The translations under genes and the position numbers were made by a program. This document shows positions 31,401 through 61,196 of a DNA stretch of 64,000 nt, in pieces. Each line of letters begins with the position of its first letter. Positions within the stretch are counted from its first letter, which is position 1. Source of the DNA: Crossaster papposus (taxonomy: Eukaryota > Echinodermata > Asteroidea > Velatida > Solasteridae); the NCBI GenBank assembly GCA_037893245.1, contig JBAIAA010000120.1, positions 682,001 through 746,000 on the forward strand. Reading direction: 5' to 3'. Under the pieces are notes generated by a model. The model was not told the DNA's origin and ran no database searches. It saw only the letters and a list, made by a program, of their open reading frames with translations.

Positions 31401-34400
31401 ATCGATGAAAACAAAGCTAAAATTGCGAATAATTGGGACAAAAGGTATTTTTTTGAAAATGGGCCAAAAATTGACTTATTCTGAAAACGACTTAAATATT
31501 ATCTTTGATGCAGGAGGAACATCAATCGATGAAAACAAAGCTAAAATTGCGAATATTTGGTACAAAAATGTATTTTTTTGAAAATGGGCCAAAAATTGAC
31601 TTATTCTTAAAACGACTTAAATATTATCTTTGATGCAGGAGGAACATCAATCGATGAAAACAAAGCTAAAATTGCGAATATTTGAGACAAAAATGTATTT
31701 TTTTGAAAATTGGAAAAAGTATAAGGGGTTAACCCCCTTTTTTTTTTTAAATGGGCCAAAAATTGACTTTTTACCAAAACGACTTAAATATTATCTTTGA
31801 TGCAGGAGGAACATCAATCGATGAAAACGAAGCTAAAATTGCGAATATTTGGGACAAAAAGTTATTTTTTTGAAAATGGGCCAAAAATTGACTTATTCTT
31901 AAAACGACTTAAATATTATCTTTGATGCAGGAGGAACATCAATCGATGAAAACAAAGCTAAAATTGCGAATATTTGGGACAAAAATGTATTTTTTTGAAA
32001 ATTGGAAAAAGTATAAGGGGTTAACCCACTTTTTTTTTTAAATGGGCCAAAAATTGACTTTTTCTCAAAACGACTTAACTATTATCTTTGATGCAGGAGG
32101 AACATCAATCGATGAAAACAAAGCTAAAATTGCGAATATTTGGGACAAAAATGTATTTTTTTGAAAATGGTCCAAAAATTGACTTATTCTTAAAACGACT
32201 TAAATATTATCTTTGATGCAGGAGGAACATCAATCGATGAAAACAAAGCTAAAATTGCGAATATTTGGGACAAAAATGTATTTTTTTGAAAATTGGAAAA
32301 AGTATAAGGGGTTAACCCACTTCTTTTTTTTTAAATGGGCCAAAAATTGACTTTTCTCAAAACGACTTTCTTTGATGCAGGAGGAACATCAATCGATGAA
32401 AACAAAGCTAAATTTGGGAATATTTGGAATAAAAGGGTATTATTTTGAAAATTTGAAGTAAAAAAAAAATCAAAATATTATAGCGCCACCTACGTTGAAA
32501 AATAAAAAGTTTTGAAAAAAAAATCAGAAAAAATTCACCTCGATTTTGGAAATACGCACAATTTTTCAATTTTGAAACCAGATTCGTGTTCAGCGTGCAA
32601 TTTCCTCTTCAAAAAGTATCATTGTGTGGGTTAAAATGCTTCCTAAGTGCTGTATTTCAAGAGTTTCTGCTTCAAAAATCACCATTCAGAGGCACTCAAG
32701 CGTGAAAAAAGATAGCGGAGTTTAATCCTTTCCCATCAATGAAAACATTTTATTGTTAACGCGGGATACATCAAAGGACCTGAACAAAGAAAACAGGTCT
32801 CTTTCTACCCGTCGACACTGCTACTCACCAATAGCTTATAATGCTACACGTGCACTACAACATTACACAAAAAGAAAAACGCTTGTCAAAAAGACTAGCC
32901 TTGTACATGCAAGACGCACAGGGATTTTCCAACCTCGCGTGACCGTGGCCGTTTTTCAAATCTGAACTTTGTCCCTATCTCCTTGGCTTCGTTCATGCAG
33001 TAATTGAGATGGAGCCGGACAGAGCCAGAACTTGGGTTTGAAAACGGCCCATACAGCTCGTAAAGCTATTCAGAAAACATTTTATTGTTAACGCGGGATA
33101 CATCAAAGGACCTGAACAAAGAAAACTGGTCTCTTTCTACCCGTCGACACTGCTACTCATCTACAGCTTATAATGCTACACGTGCACTACAAAATTACAC
33201 AAAAAGAAAAACGCTTGTAAAAAAGACTAGCCTTGTACATGCAAGATGCAAAGGGATTTTCCTCCCTCGCGTTACCGTGGCCGTTTTTCAAATCTCAACT
33301 CTGTCCCTATCTTTGGCTTCGTTCATGCAGTAAAGGAGATTGAGTCGGACAGTGCCTGGGCTGGGTTTGAAAACGGCCCAGCTATTAAAGCTATTCAGAA
33401 AACATTTTATTGTTAACGCGGGATACATCAAAGGACCTGAACAAAGAAAACAGGTCTCTTTCTACCCGTCGACACTGCTACTCATCAATAGCCTATAACG
33501 CTAAACGTGCACCACAGAATTACACTAAAAGAAAAACGCTTGTTAAAAAGACTAGCCCTGAACGTGCAAAACGCATAGGTTTTTTTCCAACATCGGCCTT
33601 ATTACCCTGGCTGTTTTTCAAATAATTATGTCCCGTCTATGTTTTTGGCATCGTTGATGGAAATGGTGATGGATCCAGACGAAGCCTTAGCTGGGGTTTA
33701 AAAAGATATAAATGTTGGCTAAAATATGAAAAAAAATGCATTGTGTTAACCAACTTTTGTATCAAAAATGTGCCAACAATCTCAAAACGACTTAAATAAT
33801 ATCTTTGATGCAGGAGGAACATCAATCGATGAAAACAAAGCTAAAATTGCGAATAATTGGGACAAAAGGTATTTTTTTGAAAATGGGCCAAAAATTGACT
33901 TATTCTGAAAACGACTTAAATATTATCTTTGATGCAGGAGGAACATCAATCGATGAAAACAAAGCTAAAATTGCGAATATTTGGTACAAAAATGTATTTT
34001 TTTGAAAATGGGCCAAAAATTGACTTATTCTTAAAACGACTTAAATATTATCTTTGATGCAGGAGGAACATCAATCGATGAAAACAAAGCTAAAATTGCG
34101 AATATTTGGGACAAAAATGTATTTTTTTGAAAATGGGCCAAAAATTGACTTATTCTTAAAACGACTTAAATATTATCTTTGATGCAGGAGGAACATCAAT
34201 CGATGAAAACAAAGCTAAATTGCGAATATTTGGGACAAAAGGTATTTTTTTGAAAATGGGCCAAAAATTGACTTATTCTTAAAACGACTTAAATATTATC
34301 TTTGATGCAGGAGGAACATCAATCGATGAAAACAAAGCTAAAATTGCGAATATTTGAGACAAAAATGTATTTTTTTGAAAATTGGAAAAAGTATAAGGGG

Positions 34401-36263: not shown

Positions 36264-37082
36264 TTAAATAATATCTTTGATGCAGGAGGAACATCAATCG
36301 ATGAAAACAAAGCTAAAATTGCGAATAATTGGGACAAAAGGTATTTTTTTGAAAATGGGCCAAAAATTGACTTATTCTGAAAACGACTTAAATATTATCT
36401 TTGATGCAGGAGGAACATCAATCGATGAAAACAAAGCTAAAATTGCGAATATTTGGTACAAAAATGTATTTTTTTGAAAATGGGCCAAAAATTGACTTAT
36501 TCTTAAAACGACTTAAATATTATCTTTGATGCAGGAGGAACATCAATCGATGAAAACAAAGCTAAAATTGCGAATATTTGGGACAAAAATGTATTTTTTT
36601 GAAAATTGGAAAAAGTATAAGGGGTTAACCCACTTTTTTTTTTAAATGGGCCAAAAATTGACTTTTTCTCAAAACGACTTAACTATTATCTTTGATGCAG
36701 GAGGAACATCAATCGATGAAAACAAAGCTAAAATTGCGAATATTTGGGACAAAAATGTATTTTTTTGAAAATGGTCCAAAAATTGACTTATTCTTAAAAC
36801 GACTTAAATATTATCTTTGATGCAGGAGGAACATCAATCGATGAAAACAAAGCTAAAATTGCGAATATTTGGGACAAAAATGTATTTTTTTGAAAATTGG
36901 AAAAAGTATAAGGGGTTAACCCACTTCTTTTTTTTTAAATGGGCCAAAAATTGACTTTTCTCAAAACGACTTTCTTTGATGCAGGAGGAACATCAATCGA
37001 TGAAAACAAAGCTAAATTTGGGAATATTTGGAATAAAAGGGTATTATTTTGAAAATTTGAAGTAAAAAAAAAATCAAAATAT

Positions 37083-38060
37083 TATAGCGCCACCTACGTT
37101 GAAAAATAAAAAGTTTTGAAAAAAAAATCAGAAAAAATTCACCTCGATTTTGGAAATACGCACAATTTTTCAATTTTGAAACCAGATTCGTGTTCAGCGT
37201 GCAATTTCCTCTTCAAAAAGTATCATTGTGTGGGTTAAAATGCTTCCTAAGTGCTGTATTTCAAGAGTTTCTGCTTCAAAAATCACCATTCAGAGGCACT
37301 CAAGCGTGAAAAAAGATAGCGGAGTTTAATCCTTTCCCATCAATGAAAACATTTTATTGTTAACGCGGGATACATCAAAGGACCTGAACAAAGAAAACAG
37401 GTCTCTTTCTACCCGTCGACACTGCTACTCACCAATAGCTTATAATGCTACACGTGCACTACAACATTACACAAAAAGAAAAACGCTTGTAAAAAAGACT
37501 AGCCTTGTACATGCAAGATGCAAAGGGATTTTCCTCCCTCGCGTTACCGTGGCCGTTTTTCAAATCTCAACTCTGTCCCTATCTTTGGCTTCGTTCATGC
37601 AGTAAAGGAGATTGAGTCGGACAGTGCCTGGGCTGGGTTTGAAAACGGCCCAGCTATTAAAGCTATTCAGAAAACATTTTATTGTTAACGCGGGATACAT
37701 CAAAGGACCTGAACAAAGAAAACAGGTCTCTTTCTACCCGTCGACACTGCTACTCATCAATAGCCTATAACGCTAAACGTGCACCACAGAATTACACTAA
37801 AAGAAAAACGCTTGTTAAAAAGACTAGCCCTGAACGTGCAAAACGCATAGGTTTTTTTCCAACATCGGCCTTATTACCCTGGCTGTTTTTCAAATAATTA
37901 TGTCCCGTCTATGTTTTTGGCATCGTTGATGGAAATGGTGATGGATCCAGACGAAGCCTTAGCTGGGGTTTAAAAAGATATAAATGTTGGCTAAAATATG
38001 AAAAAAAATGCATTGTGTTAACCAACTTTTGTATCAAAAATGTGCCAACAATCTCAAAAC
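37083..38060 (+). repeat. Two-unit B block (hybrid)
   Basis: Only two sub-repeats (37357 and 37682). The first starts as type 1 (CACCAATAGCTTATAATGC) and changes to type 2 (GCAAGATGCAAAGGGATTTT) part-way, as expected from unequal crossing over between neighbouring sub-repeats. Confidence 0.85.
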
Positions 38061-40945
38061 GACTTAAATAATATCTTTGATGCAGGAGGAACATCAATCG
38101 ATGAAAACAAAGCTAAAATTGCGAATAATTGGGACAAAAGGTATTTTTTTGAAAATGGGCCAAAAATTGACTTATTCTGAAAACGACTTAAATATTATCT
38201 TTGATGCAGGAGGAACATCAATCGATGAAAACAAAGCTAAAATTGCGAATATTTGGTACAAAAATGTATTTTTTTGAAAATGGGCCAAAAATTGACTTAT
38301 TCTTAAAACGACTTAAATATTATCTTTGATGCAGGAGGAACATCAATCGATGAAAACAAAGCTAAAATTGCGAATATTTGGGACAAAAATGTATTTTTTT
38401 GAAAATGGGCCAAAAATTGACTTATTCTTAAAACGACTTAAATATTATCTTTGATGCAGGAGGAACATCAATCGATGAAAACAAAGCTAAATTGCGAATA
38501 TTTGGGACAAAAGGTATTTTTTTGAAAATGGGCCAAAAATTGACTTATTCTTAAAACGACTTAAATATTATCTTTGATGCAGGAGGAACATCAATCGATG
38601 AAAACAAAGCTAAAATTGCGAATATTTGAGACAAAAATGTATTTTTTTGAAAATTGGAAAAAGTATAAGGGGTTAACCCACTTCTTTTTTTTTAAATGGG
38701 CCAAAAATTGACTTTTCTCAAAACGACTTTCTTTGATGCAGGAGGAACATCAATCGATGAAAACAAAGCTAAATTTGGGAATATTTGGAATAAAAGGGTA
38801 TTATTTTGAAAATTTGAAGTAAAAAAAAAATCAAAATATTATAGCGCCACCTACGTTGAAAAATAAAAAGTTTTGAAAAAAAAATCAGAAAAAATTCACC
38901 TCGATTTTGGAAATACGCACAATTTTTCAATTTTGAAACCAGATTCGTGTTCAGCGTGCAATTTCCTCTTCAAAAAGTATCATTGTGTGGGTTAAAATGC
39001 TTCCTAAGTGCTGTATTTCAAGAGTTTCTGCTTCAAAAATCACCATTCAGAGGCACTCAAGCGTGAAAAAAGATAGCGGAGTTTAATCCTTTCCCATCAA
39101 TGAAAACATTTTATTGTTAACGCGGGATACATCAAAGGACCTGAACAAAGAAAACAGGTCTCTTTCTACCCGTCGACACTGCTACTCACCAATAGCTTAT
39201 AATGCTACACGTGCACTACAACATTACACAAAAAGAAAAACGCTTGTCAAAAAGACTAGCCTTGTACATGCAAGACGCACAGGGATTTTCCAACCTCGCG
39301 TGACCGTGGCCGTTTTTCAAATCTGAACTTTGTCCCTATCTCCTTGGCTTCGTTCATGCAGTAATTGAGATGGAGCCGGACAGAGCCAGAACTTGGGTTT
39401 GAAAACGGCCCATACAGCTCGTAAAGCTATTCAGAAAACATTTTATTGTTAACGCGGGATACATCAAAGGACCTGAACAAAGAAAACTGGTCTCTTTCTA
39501 CCCGTCGACACTGCTACTCATCTACAGCTTATAATGCTACACGTGCACTACAAAATTACACAAAAAGAAAAACGCTTGTAAAAAAGACTAGCCTTGTACA
39601 TGCAAGATGCAAAGGGATTTTCCTCCCTCGCGTTACCGTGGCCGTTTTTCAAATCTCAACTCTGTCCCTATCTTTGGCTTCGTTCATGCAGTAAAGGAGA
39701 TTGAGTCGGACAGTGCCTGGGCTGGGTTTGAAAACGGCCCAGCTATTAAAGCTATTCAGAAAACATTTTATTGTTAACGCGGGATACATCAAAGGACCTG
39801 AACAAAGAAAACAGGTCTCTTTCTACCCGTCGACACTGCTACTCATCAATAGCCTATAACGCTAAACGTGCACCACAGAATTACACTAAAAGAAAAACGC
39901 TTGTTAAAAAGACTAGCCCTGAACGTGCAAAACGCATAGGTTTTTTTCCAACATCGGCCTTATTACCCTGGCTGTTTTTCAAATAATTATGTCCCGTCTA
40001 TGTTTTTGGCATCGTTGATGGAAATGGTGATGGATCCAGACGAAGCCTTAGCTGGGGTTTAAAAAGATATAAATGTTGGCTAAAATATGAAAAAAAATGC
40101 ATTGTGTTAACCAACTTTTGTATCAAAAATGTGCCAACCATCTCAAAACGACTTAAATAATATCTTTGATGCAGGAGGAACATCAATCGATGAAAACAAA
40201 GCTAAAATTGCGAATAATTGGGACAAAAGGTATTTTTTTGAAAATGGGCCAAAAATTGACTTATTCTGAAAACGACTTAAATATTATCTTTGATGCAGGA
40301 GGAACATCAATCGATGAAAACAAAGCTAAAATTGCGAATATTTGGTACAAAAATGTATTTTTTTGAAAATGGGCCAAAAATTGACTTATTCTTAAAACGA
40401 CTTAAATATTATCTTTGATGCAGGAGGAACATCAATCGATGAAAACAAAGCTAAAATTGCGAATATTTGGGACAAAAATGTATTTTTTTGAAAATGGGCC
40501 AAAAATTGACTTATTCTTAAAACGACTTAAATATTATCTTTGATGCAGGAGGAACATCAATCGATGAAAACGAAGCTAAAATTGCGAATATTTGGGACAA
40601 AAAGTTATTTTTTTGAAAATGGGCCAAAAATTGACTTATTCTTAAAACGACTTAAATATTATCTTTGATGCAGGAGGAACATCAATCGATGAAAACAAAG
40701 CTAAAATTGCGAATATTTGGGACAAAAATGTATTTTTTTGAAAATTGGAAAAAGTATAAGGGGTTAACCCACTTTTTTTTTTAAATGGGCCAAAAATTGA
40801 CTTTTTCTCAAAACGACTTAACTATTATCTTTGATGCAGGAGGAACATCAATCGATGAAAACAAAGCTAAAATTGCGAATATTTGGGACAAAAATGTATT
40901 TTTTTGAAAATGGTCCAAAAATTGACTTATTCTTAAAACGACTTA

Positions 40946-41717
40946 TCCCCACATGTGACAAGACCGGACATACAGAATCGAGCACTCGAATATATTTGTT
41001 TTGTTGCGTGTGGCCGAGCAGCCGTTTATTGTTGTAAGCGCTGTCCCAGCTCGAAGCTATGATAGCACGGGACAGCAATGCAAGCGATGTATAATGAAAG
41101 TTTGTCCGAGCCCGAAGCGGGGTAGCACAGGACAGCAATATTATATTACACAATTATCACAGTTTGTTCCCGTCCGAAGCTGATGTCGGGGAACAGCAAT
41201 ATTGTCACAGTTGGTGACGCAAATAGCAATTATATTCAGCAATATTGACACAGTTTGTGACGCAAACAGCGATTACATTCAGCAATATTGTCACAGTTCG
41301 TGACGCAAACAGCAATTTATATTCAGCAATATTGTCACAGTTTGTGACGCAAACAGCAATTACATTTAGCAATGATGTCACAGTTTGTGACACCGATCTG
41401 CAAGCAACATTATAACATTTTATCAATGCAAACCATATCATATAAAACCATTAATCAATCCCGTATTGGCATAGCACAAGCAATACCTTAAGCTATTATT
41501 ATCGTCGGCAATAAGTAAGAAATGCAATAATCAAAATATCAATCAGCAAATGTGGTAAACATATAGGGACTGTAACTACCGTGTTCCGATTTCATCTTGG
41601 AACCGACAAAGAAAGAGGGTTAAGTGCTTTTGCCGCCAATTCCCTGAAGCCTCTTAAATTAAGGTTTTATCGGCCAATTTTTGAGGCCTATTTGCGCTAT
41701 GGAATGCAATTTCCGCC
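40946..41717. repeat. Ngaro split repeat B2 (element 3' end)
   Basis: 772 bp, matching 42223-42997. It contains five imperfect ~43-bp tandem units around GCAATATTGTCACAGTTTGTG (about 41190-41400), interior to the repeat and present in both copies. The outer edge TCCCCACATGTG is the element terminus. Confidence 0.95.
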
Positions 41718-41982
41718 CGCAGTTAGTAACCTTGCCGATTCTAAGAAAGGCGAAAACCCCCTTAAAACCACATTGGGAAAAAAAGGGGAAAATTCCTTTC
41801 TGGCTCCGCTTACAATGGCAACCGAGTACAGCAAATTTATAATCACTACCAAACACTCTAGAATCGGCAAATTGCAACATAACATGATGCAGGCTGCATA
41901 CGAATTTGACAAAAAAATAAAATTATAATCTCGAAACAATGTTCATGAAAATAGGCGGCAATGACAGGGGTGGAGGAGGGAA

Positions 41983-42222
41983 TTTTTTGCAAGACGAAAT
42001 TTTTACATCTAAACAGTTCGGCTGCTCGAACTAAAGTGAGACTGGCTGAGTGCTCGAATTGAGGTTATAGTATCAAGCCAAGACTGAACTAGTTCATATC
42101 CATAAATCAATCCGACCACAAGGGGAGTGACCTGAATTGACCAAACTCTAGTTCCGTCAAAGCCTTCCAAATTGTCAAGCGAGGATAAATCATTTGAATC
42201 TTTAATTGCCTCAAACGTATTA
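41983..42222. repeat. Ngaro split repeat A2
   Basis: About 240 bp, matching 47335-47575. It abuts B1 at the CGTATTA/TCCCC joint (42220-42222), the same joint a circular form of the element would carry. Confidence 0.95.
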
Positions 42223-42997
42223 TCCCCACATGTGACAAGACCGGACATACAGAATCGAGCACTCGAATATATTTGTTTTGTTGCGTGTGGCCGAGCAGCC
42301 GTTTATTGTTGTAAGCGCTGTCCCAGCTCGAAGCTATGATAGCACGGGACAGCAATGCAAGCGATGTATAATGAAAGTTTGTCCGAGCCCGAAGCGGGGT
42401 AGCACAGGACAGCAATATTATATTACACAATTATCACAGTTTGTTCCCGTCCGAAGCTGATGTCGGGGAACAGCAATATTGTCACAGTTGGTGACGCAAA
42501 TAGCAATTATATTCAGCAATATTGACACAGTTTGTGACGCAAACAGCGATTACATTCAGCAATATTGTCACAGTTCGTGACGCAAACAGCAATTTATATT
42601 CAGCAATATTGTCACAGTTTGTGCTGACGCAAACAGCAATTACATTTAGCAATGATGTCACAGTTTGTGACACCGATCTGCAAGCAACATTATAACATTT
42701 TATCAATGCAAACCATATCATATAAAACCATTAATCAATCCCGTATTGGCATAGCACAAGCAATACCTTAAGCTATTATTATCGTCGGCAATAAGTAAGA
42801 AATGCAATAATCAAAATATCAATCAGCAAATGTGGTAAACATATAGGGACTGTAACTACCGTGTTCCGATTTCATCTTGGAACCGACAAAGAAAGAGGGT
42901 TAAGTGCTTTTGCCGCCAATTCCCTGAAGCCTCTTAAATTAAGGTTTTATCGGCCAATTTTTGAGGCCTATTTGCGCTATGGAATGCAATTTCCGCC
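42223..42997. repeat. Ngaro split repeat B1
   Basis: Copy of 40946-41717 with GCT inserted in a GTGACGC unit. It ends at TTTCCGCC beside the 3' end of the SGNH-like frame. Confidence 0.95.
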
Positions 42998-43050
42998 AAA
43001 CGGACATGTTGCGAAAGGATGGATCGCAGCATGACCGCCGCCAAATAGAC

Positions 43051-43617
43051 TCAGAATGAAAGGGCGTGACAAAGGTTGCTCAGAATAATAGAGCAACCTT
43101 CGTCTGTTAGGTGGAAGCCATCAGCGTGAAACCACGCTGGTGACGACCAAATAATCTGGGGGTGTAAAATGACCCCACCATAGGGCACCCGAAACAGAGG
43201 CTGTACGTCTTTAACGAGCAAGCGTCGTGTCTGCTCAATGGCGCCCTGTTTGCGGGCATGGGGGTAATTCAAACGGGATACAACCTCAGAATAAAATATA
43301 ACGGCATGAGGGAGAACCTCCCGAGTTAAGTTCAAACATTGACGGGCCAAAATCGTTAACTTCTGTTTCGTGACCGCACCCAGGTCATTGGTCCCGACCT
43401 GAATAATGACAAAGTCCGGCAATTCGACCGCAGCTGACCAAGCCTCCATCAGAAAATCGGGGTACTGGTCCATCGTCAGTCCCAGGCGTCCAATCCAGTT
43501 GATGTGGGCCAGCTGGTGAAGCCTCTCCCCCCAGGGCGACGACCGTGCAACTCGGGCGCACCAATTGACTAACTCGTCGCCAATTACCCACAGAGTCGGC
43601 TTGTCAGGGATGAAAGC
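43051..43617 (-). CDS. SGNH-hydrolase-like frame of the Ngaro element
   Basis: The frame is open from an upstream TGA (43618-43620) to the stop at 43051-43053, 188 codons, but its first ATG is at 43473. The conserved region begins before that ATG: WVIGDELVNW (43573-43581 encodes G-D-E) stands where SGNH enzymes have block I with a nucleophilic Ser. Block III is kept as QVGTNDLG, and block V as HADGFHLTDEG (Asp-x-x-His). So the Asp and His of the triad are present but the Ser is replaced by Glu, and esterase activity is doubtful. Lack of an early ATG suggests expression by splicing or read-through from the recombinase frame. SGNH domains in Ngaro elements are established; their role is unknown. 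Confidence 0.82.
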   Translation of the reverse strand, partial: AFIPDKPTLWVIGDELVNWCARVARSSPWGERLHQLAHINWIGRLGLTMDQYPDFLMEAWSAAVELPDFVIIQVGTNDLGAVTKQKLTILARQCLNLTREVLPHAVIFYSEVVSRLNYPHARKQGAIEQTRRLLVKDVQPLFRVPYGGVILHPQIIWSSPAWFHADGFHLTDEGCSIILSNLCHALSF

Positions 43618-43673
43618 TCATGTAATTGAGAAAGATAATACATTTTAAGAACCCATCAGAAGTAATGCTCATT

Positions 43674-44594
43674 TTAATTGAAAATACTAGACGGAATTCG
43701 CACGTAACGACGGTACGCTCCCGATTTCCATCGCCCCATAACTTTAATATCCGCTTCAGCCACGCCTGCCATAGCCGCAGAAGTCGCTGCGCCAATGCGA
43801 AATGAATGAGATGTAAATCTGTCATCATGAAGCCCTACAAAGTCCATTGCACGACGAAGGACCGCTGTGAACTGTGATCGTGTAACTGGGCTGCCATCAA
43901 AATGGGATAAAAACGAAACGGATTGGGAAGTAGAACAGGCTAGATAAGACCTAGTCGCTTGGACTGGGCAAACTATAGCATTCTGGACCGCTGGAATCGA
44001 AATTACGAAACCACGACCAAGTTGGTCCGTTTTGGAATGGCGCAGCCCTAGTTCAACCCTAAGCGGTGCATCTTTGACAGTGACGTCAGACCGACATAGC
44101 GGGGCAGGCAAAGTGCGTGACTGAGCAGTAAACTCCCCAATGCGAAGGAAGCCATAGAAAGCAAATAAAAAAGCCACTTGAAAGAGGCGAGCTTCAAACT
44201 GATTTGTACACACCGCATTCAAGGCTGGCACAATACGGCACAAAATATCAAATGTGATGGGGCGACGTCTGTCTCGACGGCTGTTACGCCTCCGACAACC
44301 CTCTAATAAACGCCTTACTACAAAATGTTTCGTTATATCGGGGTAACTCAGCAGTTGCAATTTCGAAGAAATACCAGATACATAGGAAGTAATGGATGCA
44401 GGGGCATAACCAGATACCGACATAAATGCTATAAACTGAACTAGCTGCTGCAGGGAGGGGCACCTAGCCCCATCAAACCCGTGGTTTGCACTGAACCATT
44501 GGAAAAGATGCCAAGCCCGCTGATATAATAAATGCGTGCGAGGGGCAAGGGCGTCTTGCAAAAGACCCTGAACTTCTAACTGAAGTAATTCCAC
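43674..44594 (-). CDS. Tyrosine recombinase of the Ngaro element
   Basis: 306 codons from a GTG; no ATG until residue 58. The frame overlaps the RT end by 19 bp, so it may be made by frameshift. N-terminal SAM-like region with LYQRAWHLFQWF (residues 23-34), then the catalytic domain: Arg151 in FYGFLRIGEF, Lys188 in RHSKTD, His263/Arg266 in SHSFRIGAA, Trp289 in MGRWKS, and Tyr297 in YRRYVR as the likely nucleophile. All five catalytic positions are filled. Function: recombining the circular cDNA into a target with a short identical core. It is intact in this copy. Confidence 0.93.
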   Translation of the reverse strand: MELLQLEVQGLLQDALAPRTHLLYQRAWHLFQWFSANHGFDGARCPSLQQLVQFIAFMSVSGYAPASITSYVSGISSKLQLLSYPDITKHFVVRRLLEGCRRRNSRRDRRRPITFDILCRIVPALNAVCTNQFEARLFQVAFLFAFYGFLRIGEFTAQSRTLPAPLCRSDVTVKDAPLRVELGLRHSKTDQLGRGFVISIPAVQNAIVCPVQATRSYLACSTSQSVSFLSHFDGSPVTRSQFTAVLRRAMDFVGLHDDRFTSHSFRIGAATSAAMAGVAEADIKVMGRWKSGAYRRYVRIPSSIFN

Positions 44595-46375
44595 AGGTTG
44601 GCGGGTAAGGGAGTCATATGGTGGTCTGCAGTGGGAGCGAGATGACGAAATCGTGTCATCTGGAAACGAGAGAGAGCGTCGGCAATGCCATTAGCTATAC
44701 CTGGTACATGCCTAGATTTAAACTGAATGTTAAATGTCAAACACAGTACAACTAATTGTCGGACCAACCCCATTATCAACTGACACTTGGACGTTTGCCT
44801 ATTGATGATACTGACAACCGCCTGGTTATCACACCACAATACCACCCGCTTGTCTCGCAATTCCCCTGCCCACATCTGTAATGCAATTACAATTGGAAAC
44901 AACTCCATGAAAGCTATAGAGAGTGACTTCGATTTAACAAACTCTGGCCATCTCCCTTGAGACCAACACCCGGCAAAATAGGCCCCAAACCCAATTTCTG
45001 CGGAGGCATCAGTATACAAGTGCAATTGGTCACTAGTATACCACACCGAGGAGGGAAAAATAACTGTGCCGTTAAAATAGGTCAGGAACTGCTGCCAGGT
45101 CAATAAATCTGCGCGTGCACCCGAAGTAAGGCGAATTTTGTGATGGGCCTTGGACACACCTCTAGTTAAATCGTGTAAACGACGAAGAAAAGCTCTTCCC
45201 GGCCGCACAGCTTTACAGACAAAATTAAGTCGCCCTAGTAATGATTGCAGCTCACGGAGAGATAATTTCTTTCGCCTGAGCGCACACTCTAGCTTACTCT
45301 GTAACGCAACTAACTTGTCAGGGGGAACACGTATCCGTTGGTCAACTGTGTCAATTGCTAAACCCAAGAAAGTAAGACTCGTAGTTGGCCCTTCAGTTTT
45401 ATCTTCGGCAAGGGGGACCCCGAACCGCTCACAAACCACCCGGAAAAATTGGAGGGAACGCGCGCACCCCTCAGAATGGCCAGCACTCACAAACAAGAAA
45501 TCATCAAGATAATGCAAAATGTGTTGGGAGTTAGCCACCTTACGAGTACAGTACTCAACGAAAGTGCTAAAACGTTCAAAAGTGACACATGATATGGCGC
45601 ATCCCATCGGCATACATTTATCATAATATATTTGGCCATTATGGGAAAATCCTAACAAATCAAAATCATCTGGGTGAACAGGGAGTAATCGAAAAGCTGA
45701 TTTAATATCTGACTTGGCCATAAGTGCACCCTGAGCAAAATTGGATATCATCTCTATAGCATCATCAAAACTTGTGTAATTGACGGCAGTGTTAGCCGGG
45801 TCAATAAAGTCATTGACTGAACTACCTATCGGGGACGAAAGATTGTGAATTAAACGAAATTCACCAGGGGTCTGTTTCGGTACAAGACCCACTGGTGAAC
45901 AACGCAAATTGGGGATAGGCGCATTAGAAAACGGGCCGGCTACTCGGCCCAACTCGATCTCGCGATCAATTTTTAATTGCAACATATCTGGGTGTTTACG
46001 GGCAGACAGAGAATTACGAGCAGTGGAACTAACTCTGGGTCCTGAATAACTTAGTCGAAAGCCAAGGGCAAAACCTTGCATTAAAATTTGCGCATCTTTA
46101 GTGCTTGGGTAAACGCGCAGGAATGATAACATGTTACTTAGGTTTATTGGTGTGTGCGCTAGCTGCCTGCACGCGCCCTGGCCCGCTGGACTGACGATTG
46201 TCTCGACAGCGGGTTGCTGGGTGGCCGAATACTTGACAGGTGGAGCAACGGTGCGCAAACCGGCAATTGGAGCGGAGGCATTTCCCGCGATTAAAATCGT
46301 TGCATGGGTATTGTTGACCGCCGGCATTGGGACGGCGACCTGGCCCGAATCCGGACCAGGTGTTCGCTTGGGCAC
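44576..46375 (-). CDS. Reverse transcriptase / RNase H of the Ngaro element
   Basis: The frame is open for 599 codons from a GTG, but the first useful ATG (residue 82, at 46130-46132) stands one base after the gag stop (TAA-C-ATG), so about 518 residues is the likelier product. RT motifs: PVGLVPKQTPGEFRLIHNLS (161-180), MAKSDIKSAF with Asp223, MPMGCAISCVTFERF, and YLDDF with Asp291/Asp292. RNase H: YTDAS (Asp456), FMELFP (Glu491), LWCDNQ (Asp516), GIADALSR (Asp566). All catalytic acids present. It copies the element RNA into DNA. Confidence 0.95.
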   Translation of the reverse strand: MPKRTPGPDSGQVAVPMPAVNNTHATILIAGNASAPIAGLRTVAPPVKYSATQQPAVETIVSPAGQGACRQLAHTPINLSNMLSFLRVYPSTKDAQILMQGFALGFRLSYSGPRVSSTARNSLSARKHPDMLQLKIDREIELGRVAGPFSNAPIPNLRCSPVGLVPKQTPGEFRLIHNLSSPIGSSVNDFIDPANTAVNYTSFDDAIEMISNFAQGALMAKSDIKSAFRLLPVHPDDFDLLGFSHNGQIYYDKCMPMGCAISCVTFERFSTFVEYCTRKVANSQHILHYLDDFLFVSAGHSEGCARSLQFFRVVCERFGVPLAEDKTEGPTTSLTFLGLAIDTVDQRIRVPPDKLVALQSKLECALRRKKLSLRELQSLLGRLNFVCKAVRPGRAFLRRLHDLTRGVSKAHHKIRLTSGARADLLTWQQFLTYFNGTVIFPSSVWYTSDQLHLYTDASAEIGFGAYFAGCWSQGRWPEFVKSKSLSIAFMELFPIVIALQMWAGELRDKRVVLWCDNQAVVSIINRQTSKCQLIMGLVRQLVVLCLTFNIQFKSRHVPGIANGIADALSRFQMTRFRHLAPTADHHMTPLPANLWNYFS

Positions 46376-46560
46376 GGTCGCGCTGCTGGTAGGCTCGAAA
46401 AGAATGTTGTTGGCTATGTGCGCCGAGCAATGTCAACCATAACTCGGCGTCAATGCTCGCCCAGGATCGGGATGGCATACGCGCCTGTCGCAAGCGAAAC
46501 TGTGTATCATAATCGCGCCAGCCATATCCAGAGTGTCGGGAGGCAGCACGATAGAATCAG
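46134..46560 (-). CDS. Gag C-terminal part, in a shifted frame
   Basis: Open from a TGA near 46560 to TAA at 46134-46136, with no ATG at its start. Includes YGWRDYDTQFR, then PSRSWASIDAELWL. It ends with two zinc-binding motifs: C-x7-C-x4-C-x3-H (CNDFNRGKC...CRFAH) and a knuckle C-x2-C-x4-H-x4-C (CSTCQVFGHPATRC). This is the usual Gag C-terminus of DIRS-like elements, but it is in a different frame from the N-terminal part. Confidence 0.85.
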
Positions 46561-47260
46561 CATACTTAAGCAACTGGCGTGCATGGCTAGGTTGGCGCAT
46601 TAAGTAAATTGAAGCAAAAACCAGAAAGGCAGATGTCCACTGCTCCACCGATGTTATCTGGGGAGCATGCTTATGCGGACGAATCTGCCAAGCCGGCGAA
46701 TCAGTAGACCCAACCATAAACACCGTGTCACCCACAGAATTGTCAAAGCCCGGACCATATGCCGACTTCCAAAGAGCTCCAAACTCCACGAACTCCCCTT
46801 TCCAGATTTTTTCCTTCACACTTTGAGGGACCCCCGACCCCAAGTCATCGCAAACGCTAGTTAAATTTGCATTATCAGAAGACGGGGCCGATGTAATGGA
46901 TAAGGACGGGCAAATGGATTGAACACTAGTGGAAATAATTGGTTGAGGTGTTGATTCCTCATAATTAGTCAAAATAGCCATGGACTTACCCGACTCCAAA
47001 GTCGTGGACGAGTCACCTCCGGGCCGACTGATGGTGGATGGTGCAGCAATTGGGCCTCCATCGCTGCTGACAGGGCCTGCCGTATCCAACGGGTATTCAA
47101 TACCTGCTGCCGTCGGTGCAGCCTGTGGCTCGACTAAACTTGCATCGCCTCCACCGACGACAGCATCCTGCCGGGAGGACGAACGAGGCCGTCCCCGCGG
47201 CCGCTTGGCTCCATCCACCGGCCCAGAGGCAACCCGTCGCTTCGACTGGGTACGGGGCAT
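46433..47260 (-). CDS. Gag N-terminal part of the Ngaro element
   Basis: Starts at a true ATG (47258-47260), 275 codons. Basic N-terminus with an AT-hook-like PRGRPR (residues 21-26), a low-complexity middle, then the helical region with WKGEFVEFGALWKSAYG and HARQLLKYADSIVL. After about codon 240 the homology passes to another frame near 46540-46550 (one-base shift), and the remaining residues to the stop at 46433 look random. It is either an inactivating indel or a frameshift signal. Confidence 0.87.
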   Translation of the reverse strand: MPRTQSKRRVASGPVDGAKRPRGRPRSSSRQDAVVGGGDASLVEPQAAPTAAGIEYPLDTAGPVSSDGGPIAAPSTISRPGGDSSTTLESGKSMAILTNYEESTPQPIISTSVQSICPSLSITSAPSSDNANLTSVCDDLGSGVPQSVKEKIWKGEFVEFGALWKSAYGPGFDNSVGDTVFMVGSTDSPAWQIRPHKHAPQITSVEQWTSAFLVFASIYLMRQPSHARQLLKYADSIVLPPDTLDMAGAIMIHSFACDRRVCHPDPGRALTPSYG

Positions 47261-47334
47261 ATTAACGCCAAAAAATTCTTGGCGAACTTATCGGCAAGAA
47301 AAAATTTAAATGATACTTCGCAAAAAGAAAAATA

Positions 47335-47575
47335 TTTTTTTGCAAGACGAAATTTTTACATCTAAACAGTTCGGCTGCTCGAACTAAAGTGAGACTGGCT
47401 GAGTGCTCGAATTGAGGTTATAGTATCAAGCCAAGACTGAACTAGTTCATATCCATAAATCAATCCGACCACAAGGGGAGTGACCTGAATTGACCAAACT
47501 CTAGTTCCGTCAAAGCCTTCCAAATTGTCAAGCGAGGATAAATCATTTGAATCTTTAATTGCCTCAAACGTATTA
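47335..47575. repeat. Ngaro split repeat A1 (element 5' end)
   Basis: About 240 bp matching 41983-42222. It ends CAAACGTATTA against the satellite AATATTATC. In element orientation this is the 5' end; gag starts about 75 bp inside. Confidence 0.95.
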
Positions 47576-50500
47576 AATATTATCTTTGATGCAGGAGGAA
47601 CATCAATCGATGAAAACAAAGCTAAAATTGCGAATATTTGGGACAAAAATGTATTTTTTTGAAAATTGGAAAAAGTATAAGGGGTTAACCCACTTCTTTT
47701 TTTTTAAATGGGCCAAAAATTGACTTTTCTCAAAACGACTTTCTTTGATGCAGGAGGAACATCAATCGATGAAAACAAAGCTAAATTTGGGAATATTTGG
47801 AATAAAAGGGTATTATTTTGAAAATTTGAAGTAAAAAAAAAATCAAAATATTATAGCGCCACCTACGTTGAAAAATAAAAAGTTTTGAAAAAAAAATCAG
47901 AAAAAATTCACCTCGATTTTGGAAATACGCACAATTTTTCAATTTTGAAACCAGATTCGTGTTCAGCGTGCAATTTCCTCTTCAAAAAGTATCATTGTGT
48001 GGGTTAAAATGCTTCCTAAGTGCTGTATTTCAAGAGTTTCTGCTTCAAAAATCACCATTCAGAGGCACTCAAGCGTGAAAAAAGATAGCGGAGTTTAATC
48101 CTTTCCCATCAATGAAAACATTTTATTGTTAACGCGGGATACATCAAAGGACCTGAACAAAGAAAACAGGTCTCTTTCTACCCGTCGACACTGCTACTCA
48201 CCAATAGCTTATAATGCTACACGTGCACTACAACATTACACAAAAAGAAAAACGCTTGTCAAAAAGACTAGCCTTGTACATGCAAGACGCACAGGGATTT
48301 TCCAACCTCGCGTGACCGTGGCCGTTTTTCAAATCTGAACTTTGTCCCTATCTCCTTGGCTTCGTTCATGCAGTAATTGAGATGGAGCCGGACAGAGCCA
48401 GAACTTGGGTTTGAAAACGGCCCATACAGCTCGTAAAGCTATTCAGAAAACATTTTATTGTTAACGCGGGATACATCAAAGGACCTGAACAAAGAAAACT
48501 GGTCTCTTTCTACCCGTCGACACTGCTACTCATCTACAGCTTATAATGCTACACGTGCACTACAAAATTACACAAAAAGAAAAACGCTTGTAAAAAAGAC
48601 TAGCCTTGTACATGCAAGATGCAAAGGGATTTTCCTCCCTCGCGTTACCGTGGCCGTTTTTCAAATCTCAACTCTGTCCCTATCTTTGGCTTCGTTCATG
48701 CAGTAAAGGAGATTGAGTCGGACAGTGCCTGGGCTGGGTTTGAAAACGGCCCAGCTATTAAAGCTATTCAGAAAACATTTTATTGTTAACGCGGGATACA
48801 TCAAAGGACCTGAACAAAGAAAACAGGTCTCTTTCTACCCGTCGACACTGCTACTCATCAATAGCCTATAACGCTAAACGTGCACCACAGAATTACACTA
48901 AAAGAAAAACGCTTGTTAAAAAGACTAGCCCTGAACGTGCAAAACGCATAGGTTTTTTTTCCAACATCGGCCTTATTACCCTGGCTGTTTTTCAAATAAT
49001 TATGTCCCGTCTATGTTTTTGGCATCGTTGATGGAAATGGTGATGGATCCAGACGAAGCCTTAGCTGGGGTTTAAAAAGATATAAATGTTGGCTAAAATA
49101 TGAAAAAAAATGCATTGTGTTAACCAACTTTTGTATCAAAAATGTGCCAACAATCTCAAAACGACTTAAATAATATCTTTGATGCAGGAGGAACATCAAT
49201 CGATGAAAACAAAGCTAAAATTGCGAATAATTGGGACAAAAGGTATTTTTTTGAAAATGGGCCAAAAATTGACTTATTCTGAAAACGACTTAAATATTAT
49301 CTTTGATGCAGGAGGAACATCAATCGATGAAAACAAAGCTAAAATTGCGAATATTTGGTACAAAAATGTATTTTTTTGAAAATGGGCCAAAAATTGACTT
49401 ATTCTTAAAACGACTTAAATATTATCTTTGATGCAGGAGGAACATCAATCGATGAAAACAAAGCTAAAATTGCGAATATTTGGGACAAAAATGTATTTTT
49501 TTGAAAATGGGCCAAAAATTGACTTATTCTTAAAACGACTTAAATATTATCTTTGATGCAGGAGGAACATCAATCGATGAAAACAAAGCTAAATTGCGAA
49601 TATTTGGGACAAAAGGTATTTTTTTGAAAATGGGCCAAAAATTGACTTATTCTTAAAACGACTTAAATATTATCTTTGATGCAGGAGGAACATCAATCGA
49701 TGAAAACAAAGCTAAAATTGCGAATATTTGAGACAAAAATGTATTTTTTTGAAAATTGGAAAAAGTATAAGGGGTTAACCCACTTTTTTTTTTTAAATGG
49801 GCCAAAAATTGACTTTTTACCAAAACGACTTAAATATTATCTTTGATGCAGGAGGAACATCAATCGATGAAAACGAAGCTAAAATTGCGAATATTTGGGA
49901 CAAAAAGTTATTTTTTTGAAAATGGGCCAAAAATTGACTTATTCTTAAAACGACTTAAATATTATCTTTGATGCAGGAGGAACATCAATCGATGAAAACA
50001 AAGCTAAAATTGCGAATATTTGGGACAAAAATGTATTTTTTTGAAAATTGGAAAAAGTATAAGGGGTTAACCCACTTTTTTTTTTAAATGGGCCAAAAAT
50101 TGACTTTTTCTCAAAACGACTTAACTATTATCTTTGATGCAGGAGGAACATCAATCGATGAAAACAAAGCTAAAATTGCGAATATTTGGGACAAAAATGT
50201 ATTTTTTTGAAAATGGTCCAAAAATTGACTTATTCTTAAAACGACTTAAATATTATCTTTGATGCAGGAGGAACATCAATCGATGAAAACAAAGCTAAAA
50301 TTGCGAATATTTGGGACAAAAATGTATTTTTTTGAAAATTGGAAAAAGTATAAGGGGTTAACCCACTTTTTTTTTTTTAAATGGGCCAAAAATTGACTTT
50401 TCTCAAAACGACTTTCTTTGATGCAGGAGGAACATCAATCGATGAAAACAAAGCTAAATTTGGGAATATTTGGAATAAAAGGGTATTATTTTGAAAATTT

Positions 50501-53500
50501 GAAGTAAAAAAAAAATCAAAATATTATAGCGCCACCTACGTTGAAAAATAAAAAGTTTTGAAAAAAAAATCAGAAAAAATTCACCTCGATTTTGGAAATA
50601 CGCACAATTTTTCAATTTTGAAACCAGATTCGTGTTCAGCGTGCAATTTCCTCTTCAAAAAGTATCATTGTGTGGGTTAAAATGCTTCCTAAGTGCTGTA
50701 TTTCAAGAGTTTCTGCTTCAAAAATCACCATTCAGAGGCACTCAAGCGTGAAAAAAGATAGCGGAGTTTAATCCTTTCCCATCAATGAAAACATTTTATT
50801 GTTAACGCGGGATACATCAAAGGACCTGAACAAAGAAAACAGGTCTCTTTCTACCCGTCGACACTGCTACTCACCAATAGCTTATAATGCTACACGTGCA
50901 CTACAACATTACACAAAAAGAAAAACGCTTGTCAAAAAGACTAGCCTTGTACATGCAAGACGCACAGGGATTTTCCAACCTCGCGTGACCGTGGCCGTTT
51001 TTCAAATCTGAACTTTGTCCCTATCTCCTTGGCTTCGTTCATGCAGTAATTGAGATGGAGCCGGACAGAGCCAGAACTTGGGTTTGAAAACGGCCCATAC
51101 AGCTCGTAAAGCTATTCAGAAAACATTTTATTGTTAACGCGGGATACATCAAAGGACCTGAACAAAGAAAACTGGTCTCTTTCTACCCGTCGACACTGCT
51201 ACTCATCTACAGCTTATAATGCTACACGTGCACTACAAAATTACACAAAAAGAAAAACGCTTGTAAAAAAGACTAGCCTTGTACATGCAAGATGCAAAGG
51301 GTTTTCCTCCCTCGCGTTACCGTGGCCGTTTTTCAAATCTCAACTCTGTCCCTATCTTTGGCTTCGTTCATGCAGTAAAGGAGATTGAGTCGGACAGTGC
51401 CTGGGCTGGGTTTGAAAACGGCCCAGCTATTAAAGCTATTCAGAAAACATTTTATTGTTAACGCGGGATACATCAAAGGACCTGAACAAAGAAAACAGGT
51501 CTCTTTCTACCCGTCGACACTGCTACTCATCAATAGCCTATAACGCTAAACGTGCACCACAGAATTACACTAAAAGAAAAACGCTTGTTAAAAAGACTAG
51601 CCCTGAACGTGCAAAACGCATAGGTTTTTTTCCAACATCGGCCTTATTACCCTGGCTGTTTTTCAAATAATTATGTCCCGTCTATGTTTTTGGCATCGTT
51701 GATGGAAATGGTGATGGATCCAGACGAAGCCTTAGCTGGGGTTTAAAAAGATATAAATGTTGGCTAAAATATGAAAAAAAATGCATTGTGTTAACCAACT
51801 TTTGTATCAAAAATGTGCCAACAATCTCAAAACGACCTAAATAATATCTTTGATGCAGGAGGAACATCAATCGATGAAAACAAAGCTAAAATTGCGAATA
51901 TTTGGGACAAAAGGTATTTTTTTGAAAATGGGCCAAAAATTGACTTATTCTGAAAACGACTTAAATATTATCTTTGATGCAGGAGGAACATCAATCGATG
52001 AAAACAAAGCTAAAATTGCGAATATTTCGGACAAAAATGTATTTTTTTGAAAATTGGAAAAAGTATAAGGGGTTAACCCACTTTTTTTTTAAAATGGGCC
52101 AAAAATTGACTTTTTATTAAAACGACTTAAATATTATCTTTGATGCAGGAGGAACATCAATCGATGAAAACAAAGCTAAAATTGCGAATATTTGGGACAA
52201 AAGGTATTTTTTTGAAAATGGGCCAAAAATTGACTTATTCTTAAAACGACTTAAATATTATCTTTGATGCAGGAGGAACATCAATCGATGAAAACAAAGC
52301 TAAAATTGCGAATATTTGGGACAAAAGGTATTTTTTTGAAAATGGGCCAAAAATTGACTTATTCTTAAAACGACTTAAATATTATCTTTGATGCAGGAGG
52401 AACATCAATCGATGAAAACAAAGCTAAAATTGCGAATATTTGGGACAAAAATGTATTTTTTTGAAAATTGGAAAAAGTATAAGGGGTTAACCCACTTTTT
52501 TTTTTAAATGGGCCAAAAATTGACTTTTTCTTAAAACGACTTAAATATTATCTTTGATGCAGGAGGAACATCAATCGATGAAAACAAAGCTAAAATTGCG
52601 AATATTTGGGACAAAAGGTATTTTTTTGAAAATGGGCCAAAAATTGACTTATTCTTAAAACGACTTAAATATTATCTTTGATGCAGGAGGAACATCAATC
52701 GATGAAAACAAAGCTAAAATTGCGAATATTTGGGACAAAAGGTATTTTTTTGAAAATGGGCCAAAAATTGACTTATTCTTAAAACGACTTAAATATTATC
52801 TTTGATGCAGGAGGAACATCAATCGATGAAAACAAAGCTAAAATTGCGAATATTTGGGACAAAAATGTATTTTTTTGAAAATTGGAAAAAGTATAAGGGG
52901 TTAACCCACTTTTTTTTTTAAATGGGCCAAAAATTGACTTTTTCTTAAAACGACTTAAATATTATCTTTGATGCAGGAGGAACATCAATCGATAAAAACA
53001 AAGCTAAAATTGCGAATATTTGGGACAAAAATGTATTTTTTTGAAAATGGGCCAAAAATTGACTTATTCTTAAAACGACTTAAATATTATCTTTGATGCA
53101 GGAGGAACATCAATCGATGAAAACAAAGCTAAAATTGCGAATATTTGGGACAAAAATGTATTTTTTTGAAAATTGGAAAAAGTATAAGGGGTTAACCCAC
53201 TTTTTTTTTTAAATGGGCCAAAAATTGACTTTTTACCAAAACGACTTAAATGTTATCTTTGAGGCAGGAGGAACATCAATCGATGAAAACAAAGCTAAAA
53301 TTGCAAATATTTGGGACAAAAATGTATTTTTTTTTAAATGGGCCAAAAATTGACTTTTCTCAAAACGACTTTCTTTGATGCAGGAGGAACATCAATCGAT
53401 GAAAACAAAGCTAAATTTGGGAATATTTGGGATAAAAGGGTATTATTTTGAAAATTTGAAGTAAAAAAAAATTCAAAATATATAGCGCCACCTACGTTGA

Positions 53501-59655: not shown

Positions 59656-61196
59656 TCAAAATATATAGCGCCACCTACGTTGAAAAATAAAAAGTTTTGA
59701 AAAATAAATCAGAACAAATTCACCTCGATTTTGGAAATACGCACAATTTTTCAATTTTGAAACCAGATTCGTGTTCAGCGTGCAATTTCCTCTTCAAAAA
59801 GTATCATTGTGTGGGTTAAAATGCTTCCTAAGGGCTGTATTTCAAGAGTTTCTGCTTCAAAAATCACCATTCAGAGGCACTCAAGCGTGAAAAAAGATAG
59901 CGGAGTTTAATCCTTTCCCATCAATGAAAACATTTTATTGTTAACGCGGGATACATCAAAAGACCTGAACAAAGAAAACAGGTCTCTTTCTACCCGTCGA
60001 CACTGCTACTCACCAATAGCTTATAATGCTACACGTGCACTACAACATTACACAAAAAGAAAAACGCTTGTCAAAAAGACTAGCCTTGTACATGCAAGAC
60101 GCACAGGGATTTTCCAACCTCGCGTGACCGTGGCCGTTTTTCAAATCTGAACTGTGTCCCTATCTCCTTGGCTTCGTTCATGCAGTAATTGAGATGGAGC
60201 CGGACAGAGCCAGAACTTGGGTTTGAAAACAGCCCATACAGCTCGTAAAGCTATTCAGAAAACATTTTATTGTTAACGCGGGATACATCAAAGGACCTGA
60301 ACAAAGAAAACTGGTCTCTTTCTACCCGTCGACACTGCTACTCATCAACAGCTTATAATGCTACACGTGCACTACAACATTACACAAAAAGAAAAACGCT
60401 TGTAAAAAAGACTAGCCTTGTACATGCAAGACGCACAGGGATTTTCCAACCTCGCGTGACCGTGGCCGTTTTTCAAATCTGAACTTTGTCCCTATCTCCT
60501 TGGCTTCGTTTATGCAGTAATTGAGATGGAGCCGGACAGAGCCAGAACTGGGGTTTGAAAACGGCCCATACAGCTCGTAAAGCTATTCAGAAAACATTTT
60601 ATTGTTAACGCGGGATACATCAAAGGACCTGAACAAAGAAAACTGGTCTCTTTCTACCCGTCGACACTGCTACTCATCAATAGCCTATAACGCTAAACGT
60701 GCACCACAGAATTACACTAAAAGCAAAACGCTTGTTAAAAAGACTAGCCCTGAACGTGCAAAACGCATAGGTTTTTTTCCAACATCGGCCTTATTACCTC
60801 GGCTGTTTTTCAAATAATTATGTCCCGTCTATGTTTTTGGCATCGTTGATGGAAATGGTGATGGATCCAGACGAAGCCTTAGCTGGGGTTTAAAAATATA
60901 TAAATGTTGGCTAAAATATGGAAAAAAATGCATTGTGTTAACCAACTTTTGTATCAAAAATGTGCCAACAATCTCAAAACGACTTAAATATTATTTTTGA
61001 TGCAGGAGGAACATCAATCGATGAAAACAAAGCTAAAATTGCGAATATTTGGGACAAAAATGTATTTTTTTGAAACTGTGGGCCAAAAATTGACTTATTC
61101 TTAAAACGACTTAAATATTATCTTTGATGCAGGAGGAACATCAATCGATGAAAACAAAGCTAAAATTGCGAATATTTGGTACAAAAATGATTTTTT

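Follow-up and report, generated by a model that had tools for sequence, protein, structure and literature searches.

Ngaro insertions in Crossaster papposus favour a target TTA without requiring it, and non-matching triplets are found mostly at the right end

Introduction

Must the target of a tyrosine recombinase retrotransposon carry the same bases as the incoming element, and, where it does not, which junction inherits which bases? The question is raised by a locus of Crossaster papposus (GenBank assembly GCA_037893245.1) at which an apparently complete Ngaro retrotransposon of 6633 bp lies inside a tandem satellite. We analysed a stretch of 64,000 nucleotides (contig JBAIAA010000120.1, positions 682,001 to 746,000 of the forward strand), hereafter the window, in which the element occupies positions 40943-47575. 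The published picture of entry for such retrotransposons, described for DIRS1-like elements, is an exchange at a 3-bp sequence identical in the two partners (PMC3266345; papers are cited here by PubMed Central number and for individual passages). In the copies analysed here, identity is common but not required.

Tandem arrays provide empty copies of the sites that were actually hit, including sites that mismatch the circle. Such mismatched sites are informative because they locate the crossover and show which side inherits which triplet. From them and from the matching sites, we consider it probable that the Ngaro recombinase joined the CGTA-TTA-TCCCC joint of a circular, or circle-equivalent, cDNA to a target reading (T)TA and then A/T bases, the left junction taking the TTA of the circle and the right junction the triplet of the target. 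We found no report of one-sided triplet inheritance for Ngaro or DIRS elements in the titles, abstract openings and passages covered by our literature search, outside which most subscription papers lay. If general, this one-sidedness would narrow the choice of intermediate, between a double-stranded circle and a single-stranded cDNA, from genome sequence alone.

Junctions of the window insertion

The element carries two pairs of split direct repeats, designated A and B, with an outer and an internal copy of each (Table 1). Its left junction reads GAC-TTA-TCCCC, the internal joint between B1 and A2 reads GTA-TTA-TCCCC, and the right junction reads GTA-TTA-AATATTATC. Exactly three bases, TTA, are common to the left flank and the end of B2, and the same three, with none beyond them, to the start of A1 and the right flank. 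The first-pass annotation of this DNA had reported a TTA common to all three junctions, and both the triplet and its coordinates were confirmed. When the two flanks are joined across a single TTA, the resulting 603 bp are identical at 603 of 603 positions to uninterrupted satellite at two places in the window, as anticipated if the flanks belong to one continuous monomer sequence. The joined flanks also match positions 49946-50548 (99.8%), 29477-30078 (99.7%) and 59087-59687 (98.3%), and since they match several places, the insertion lies at a defined step of a higher-order repeat. In the window, 105 monomer cores were counted, and 92 of these stretches carry CGACTTAA[AC]TA. No bases were lost at this insertion and none were duplicated. 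The satellite itself extends over 23192-61200 and consists of monomers of about 125 and 166 bp with a 332-bp second unit, the variants following one another in fixed order.

The first-pass annotation explained this copy by a circle with the joint GTA-TTA-TCCCC that recombined with a target TTA without duplication. That explanation accounts for the three junctions and the empty monomers of the window, and it fits the common case elsewhere in the genome (24 of 28 sites, below), but it is not supported as a rule, as four sites lack a right-hand TTA. Recombination through a circle joint is not in itself new, being the model already published for DIRS-order elements (PMC3266345).

Insertion sites elsewhere in the genome

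Further copies were sought in the 1.02-Gb genome that holds the window. A probe for the joint returned 447 candidates and a probe for the A end 234, with 40 scored in each case. Ends were read from 20 long stretches, 19 left-end stretches (16 with a left end), 20 A-end stretches without a scored joint, and right-end stretches. With repeats of one flank collapsed, these yielded 28 distinct two-ended sites, at 24 of which both ends read TTA. The remaining four have TTA at the left and another triplet at the right: GCA (L011), TAA (L015), CTA (L041) and ATA (L042). The background frequency of TTA in the non-satellite part of the window is 0.022, so chance is no concern for the 24 of 28. The idea that the flanks of all copies share TTA therefore holds for these 24 sites and not for the right ends of the other four.

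Loci collapsed to one site were L009, L010 and L013; L011 and L014; L018-L022; L023-L025; L017 with L030; L045 with L046; L068 and L071; L069, L073 and L074; L076 and L077; and L081 and L082. Left out of the 28 were L028 (TTA at both ends, with the right flank from a different array); a second element on C164 (left end in L086, no right end in its L016 part); L029, L035 and L044 (left end not found); L033, L068, L072 and L076 (right end not found); L047 (TTA right end 5.5 kb off, flank unread); and L080 and L085 (truncated or right end not fetched). L032 (ATA), L069 (CTA) and L084 (GTA) were also left out because their right ends were known only through the search for non-TTA ends and would bias the count. 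L026 (C996:124070-134050), likewise excluded, starts at B1, without A1 and the adjoining stretch U; unlike the other copies read, it carries at both ends a repeat of about 17 bp, and it is probably a truncated copy, inserted by a different route.

Two candidate non-TTA targets were rejected. L043 appeared to be a TTC target, as 17 of 17 neighbouring monomers read TTC, but TTA monomers occur elsewhere in its satellite (five places among the loci examined, three of them one site), and it was counted as TTA. L045 had been considered a TAA target; its right end reads TTA, beside array monomers of the same form.

Since tandem arrays or dispersed repeats host many of the insertions, empty copies were available for comparison. 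Empty TTA copies were found for L009, L016, L018, L017, L079 and L012 (for the last, both of the two fetched, on two contigs). The single site represented by L011 and L014 lies in a tRNA-Met array, with four tRNA-Met genes found in L014, and all 10 empty monomers fetched read GTGAA-GCA-AAAATACC. L015 lies in a dispersed repeat with at least 40 full-length matches, and the four empty copies fetched all read CTT-TAA-AAG. L041 lies in a tRNA-Leu array in which both neighbouring monomers of the same type read CTA and a third, of another type, ATA; none reads TTA. Because the empty copies at L011, L015 and L041 read GCA, TAA and CTA, the targets themselves were non-TTA. For L042, whose right end reads ATA, no empty copy was seen. 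A target TTA is thus preferred but not required. Among the observations that the first-pass annotation had named as counting against its model were the absence of a shared trinucleotide, which is what the non-TTA sites show, and target duplication, which is absent at L011, L015 and L041, three of the four such sites.

Distribution of departures from TTA

We searched the exact end motifs genome-wide, counting places rather than events and including internal joints. The right motif occurred with TTA at 211 places, with a first base other than T at 20 and with a second base other than T at eight; the corresponding numbers for the left motif were 207, two and four. Of the 20 first-base right ends, four had been read earlier and 15 more were fetched; the last, C723:1651231, was unread and was taken as another copy of the L069 site. 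Together they represent 14 distinct flanks, one of which recurs at five places, perhaps as a repeat that carried the end with it. Twelve of the 14 read NTA, the others GCA and GTG, and this composition (p 4e-13) gives them the appearance of site-specific insertions rather than of random truncations. Among the eight second-base right places, three are one internal joint (that of L023-L025), and the other five amount to four distinct flanks, all TAA. On the left, the two first-base places are a mutated joint and one true left end (C162), while three of the four second-base places are the L023-L025 joint and the fourth is C841. Departures from TT therefore comprise 18 distinct right flanks versus at most two left ends (p 4e-4, with the class TT plus non-A outside the search).

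The same asymmetry was seen where both ends of an insertion could be paired. For ten sites with a single non-TTA end the partner end is also known, and TTA stands at the left in nine of them (L011, L015, L041, L042, L032, L069, L084, C259 and C152) and at the right in C162. Given the one-sided excess, the recovered products behave like the outcome of a single crossover at the left boundary of TTA, which suggests that the triplet of the circle is found at the left and that of the target at the right.

Several points weigh against this interpretation. An unbroken stretch covers both ends at eleven of the 28 sites (the window, L009, L011, L012, L015, L016, L017, L018, L023, L027 and L075); in the remaining 17 the two ends come from separate pieces of a single contig and were matched by having the strand and spacing expected. 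Among the ten partnered sites, an unbroken stretch likewise covers only L011 and L015, and contig position served to pair the ends of the remaining eight. C162, with GTA at the left and TTA at the right 4.6 kb away, represents either the opposite arrangement or a point mutation, and C841 (left TCA) is an unread left place that we counted among the at most two. At L023-L025, one site whose flank is present on three contigs, the joint reads TAA and both outer ends TTA; if its circle carried TAA, the rule that the left end comes from the circle fails there, unless the joint mutated later. The motif search covered changes in the first and second bases of the triplet but not TT followed by a base other than A, and exact motifs would also miss opposite products with an altered TCCCC, although none was found among the left ends read by alignment. 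Finally, the Pfam scores of the recombinase and hydrolase frames are under the curated cut-offs.

Target preference

The third base of the target is A at 28 of 28 sites. Bases +1 and +2 are both A/T at 23 of the 24 TTA sites, compared with a background of 0.53 (p 6e-6). Together with the NTA flanks described above, these frequencies define the target as (T)TA with A/T bases after it. The window insertion and L016 hit the same base in monomers that belong to one satellite but have diverged.

Five of the 28 sites (L011, L079, L017, L041 and L042) lie in tRNA gene arrays or adjoin a tRNA gene; large tRNA gene arrays are present in this genome, and this proximity is reported as an observation and not as an enrichment. 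Insertions of this kind, at L011, L014, L017, L041, L042, L079, L104 and L105, lie within tandem tRNA-Met and tRNA-Leu arrays, except for one that sits about 20 bp from a tRNA-Ala gene. L017 and L030, which belong to different subfamilies, are inserted at one and the same base of a tRNA-Leu array repeat.

Models of entry

In the mechanism that we favour, a circular or circle-equivalent cDNA would carry the joint CGTA-TTA-TCCCC, and the tyrosine recombinase of the element would join it to the chromosome at (T)TA followed by A/T bases. If the crossover falls immediately to the left of TTA, the left junction would receive the TTA of the circle and the right junction would keep the triplet of the target, and a target TTA would then leave TTA at both ends without duplication, as in the window. 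The one-sidedness may reflect a single productive or inherited strand exchange, or repair that favours one strand. Circular DIRS-1 cDNA has been reported in an agnA deletion strain (PMC5633606).

The first of these two origins corresponds to a single-strand exchange and the second to a two-strand exchange across an overlap of at least 3 bp that tolerates mismatches, with the heteroduplex resolved toward one strand by mismatch repair or replication bias. We regard the latter as a serious possibility, if somewhat short of an even chance. Homology would then count most at T2 and A3, adjoining the first cleavage, and the order of conservation, A3 > T2 > T1, is in keeping with homology being checked at one edge of the overlap; in CTnDOT, whose recombinase is IntDOT, homology likewise matters most next to the first cleavage. 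C162 would be one candidate for the opposite arrangement. However, unbiased repair predicts equal numbers of the two arrangements, in conflict with the 18 versus at most two observed, and we know of no reason for repair to be strand-specific.

Single-strand exchange, with the joint folded or locally double-stranded on an otherwise single-stranded cDNA and replication completing the insertion, we hold to be a more tentative explanation. One-sided inheritance of the triplet is compatible with it but is not proof. A second point in its favour is an imperfect inverted repeat around the crossover, composed of GGGGATAA/TTATCCCC and TTTGA/TCAAA, with one mismatch in the subfamily of the window. Its outer stem (42181-42188 with 42220-42227) forms seven of eight pairs in the window copy and eight of eight in two other haplotypes tested; its inner stem (42193-42197 with 42211-42215) forms five of five, and the unpaired spacers measure 4, 4 and 13 nt. 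As the energy of the predicted fold lacked significance (z -0.5 and -1.8), the repeat was tested at the level of sequence: the 12, 13 and 13 of 13 pairs in the three haplotypes were reached by 3, 0 and 0 of 4000 shuffles, in which the upstream letters were shuffled and the geometry was that chosen after the predicted fold. Besides this choice of geometry and the fold energy, it counts against single-strand exchange that the subfamily of the window breaks one pair of the outer stem, that inspection of 13 B-end haplotypes by eye revealed no compensating change, and that the products do not reveal which strand was exchanged.

Single-strand exchange has been likened here to three DNA systems. The integron attC site is a folded inverted repeat with a single crossover point, and integron cassettes and CTX phage exchange one strand only. 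The two-part inverted repeat of attC surrounds the crossover, and the 8 + 5 pairs with unpaired spacers at the Ngaro joint may resemble it; we note this as a likeness only. The same applies to the tyrosine recombinase of integron cassettes and CTX phage and to the replication that completes their insertion (PMC9345347). The bacterial SE elements (strand-biased circularizing integrative elements) also use a tyrosine recombinase, and their 6-bp spacer tends to be placed on one fixed side (PMC9345347), but they are DNA elements with a longer spacer and no reverse transcription, so that their likeness to Ngaro is one of outcome only. On the side of the retrotransposons, the title of a DIRS-1 paper reportedly names a linear, single-stranded cDNA, which would suit single-strand exchange. 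Slightly more doubtful still is the fuller proposal that Ngaro integration is a one-strand recombinase reaction immediately before TTA, in which the joint would form an attC-like hairpin or local duplex on the cDNA and host replication would complete the insertion. Such a reaction, if real, would give eukaryotes a counterpart to the insertion of integron cassettes and CTX phage, adapted to a single-stranded cDNA.

It is unlikely, in our view, that TTA belongs wholly to the left end of the element and that the target preference is a binding preference of the recombinase, with no base pairing between circle and target. That arrangement predicts the same products, including those at the GCA target, but enrichment in the target falls on the letters that the circle itself carries, (T)TA (24 of 28 sites), which is most simply understood as homology or a common half-site. 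Least probable by far is the classical two-strand exchange over a 3-bp overlap identical in circle and target, with non-TTA ends as later mutations, which agrees with TTA at both ends of 24 sites and with the model stated in PMC3266345, but which in its strict form is largely refuted by the GCA, TAA and CTA empty sites, and against which the counts of 18 right flanks and at most two left ends also speak, as later mutation should strike both ends equally.

Element structure and classification

The features of the element and its empty counterparts are listed in Table 1. What we call A1 is the terminal B2 of Ngaro nomenclature when read on the coding strand. The element is young.

Table 1. Positions in the window of the Ngaro element, its repeats, junctions and reading frames, and of the empty counterparts of its insertion site.
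Feature	Position	Strand	Remarks
Empty counterpart of insertion site	31900..32502	+	603/603 identical to joined flanks
Second empty counterpart of insertion site	36504..37106	+	603/603 identical to joined flanks
Left outer junction triplet	40943..40945	+	TTA
A1, outer copy of long split repeat	40943..41717	+	Contains 43-bp tandem units
U, stretch separating A1 from B1	41718..41982	+	265 bp; single-copy within element
B1, internal copy of short split repeat	41983..42222	+	100% identical to B2
Imperfect inverted repeat at joint	42181..42227	+	Function putative
Internal joint B1/A2	42220..42222	+	TTA
A2, internal copy of long split repeat	42220..42997	+	99.6% identical to A1
GDSL/SGNH hydrolase-like frame	43051..43617	-	188 aa stop to stop; PF13472 E 2.3e-7, just under curated cut-off
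Tyrosine recombinase frame	43674..44690	-	338 aa; PF00589 E 2.8e-5, under curated cut-off
Reverse transcriptase frame	44576..46432	-	618 aa; YLDD present; PF00078 E 7.8e-15, above cut-off
Overlapping frame	46134..46556	-	Cysteine/histidine residues
Gag-like frame	46433..47287	-	284 aa; named from position; no Pfam match
B2, outer copy of short split repeat	47336..47575	+	
Right outer junction triplet	47573..47575	+	TTA

In the recombinase frame, R, HxxR, W and Y residues are visible, and we take LRIGE, HSFR, GRW and RRY to be the corresponding motifs. Searches of this frame against NCBIfam and PDB sequences gave no match, and a single-sequence fold model (mean pLDDT 37) was too poor for use. 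The reverse transcriptase frame has no Pfam match to RNase H, the RNase H part being putative, and no relatives of the reverse transcriptase were found in viral contigs. The cysteine and histidine residues of the overlapping frame are presumably zinc-knuckle-like.

The element combines the reverse transcriptase with a tyrosine recombinase in place of a DDE integrase, and a methyltransferase domain, the marker of DIRS/PAT elements, had no match at E 0.001 in the four frames scanned. As in other members of the Ngaro superfamily, split direct repeats surround the two enzymes, the recombinase lies downstream of the reverse transcriptase in the same orientation, and the internal joint sits past the recombinase frame on the coding strand, a feature described in PMC4157794. 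The empty sites reveal no target-site duplication, the exception being L026, which lacks A1. An SGNH-type hydrolase frame is also found in amphibian Ngaro (PMC9210276), and solo A-B derivatives, described below for this element, in Cafeteria Ngaro (PMC8547959). The element differs from the superfamily in the unique stretch U between its outer repeats. With DIRS1-like elements it has in common a 3-bp junction shared with the target, the lack of target-site duplication and many A/T-rich junctions, TAA and TTA among them (PMC3266345). It differs from them in that its split repeats are direct and not inverted and in that the shared triplet is preferred and not required. Inverted terminal repeats with internal complementary regions, as in DIRS1-like elements, are not present: the number of inverted repeat pairs of at least 20 nt (seed 11) in 40500-48200 is zero, which argues against a DIRS1-like element.

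Derivatives and subfamilies

Among the 19 A-end stretches L067-L085, all of which have TTA at the left end, 15 (with 10 distinct left flanks) run from A directly into the internal region, without A1-U-B1, and two, L075 and L078, consist of A-U-B alone. Copies without A1-U-B1 and solo A-U-B are the two products expected from recombination between two joints. Homologous recombination between the repeats yields the same derivatives and, for the copies without A1-U-B1, is indistinguishable from recombinase-mediated deletion.

L018-L025 form a group that has intact split repeats but whose similarity to the internal region is partial, at about 82-95%; they are probably non-autonomous elements or a different subfamily moved by the same ends. 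L081 and L082 (C729) are tandem elements about 5.7 kb apart with the same 30-bp left flank, which suggests that they arose through local duplication. In the window, further tandem arrays are found at 12888-14890 (151-bp units, 13.5 copies) and 11678-12039 (72-bp units, five copies).

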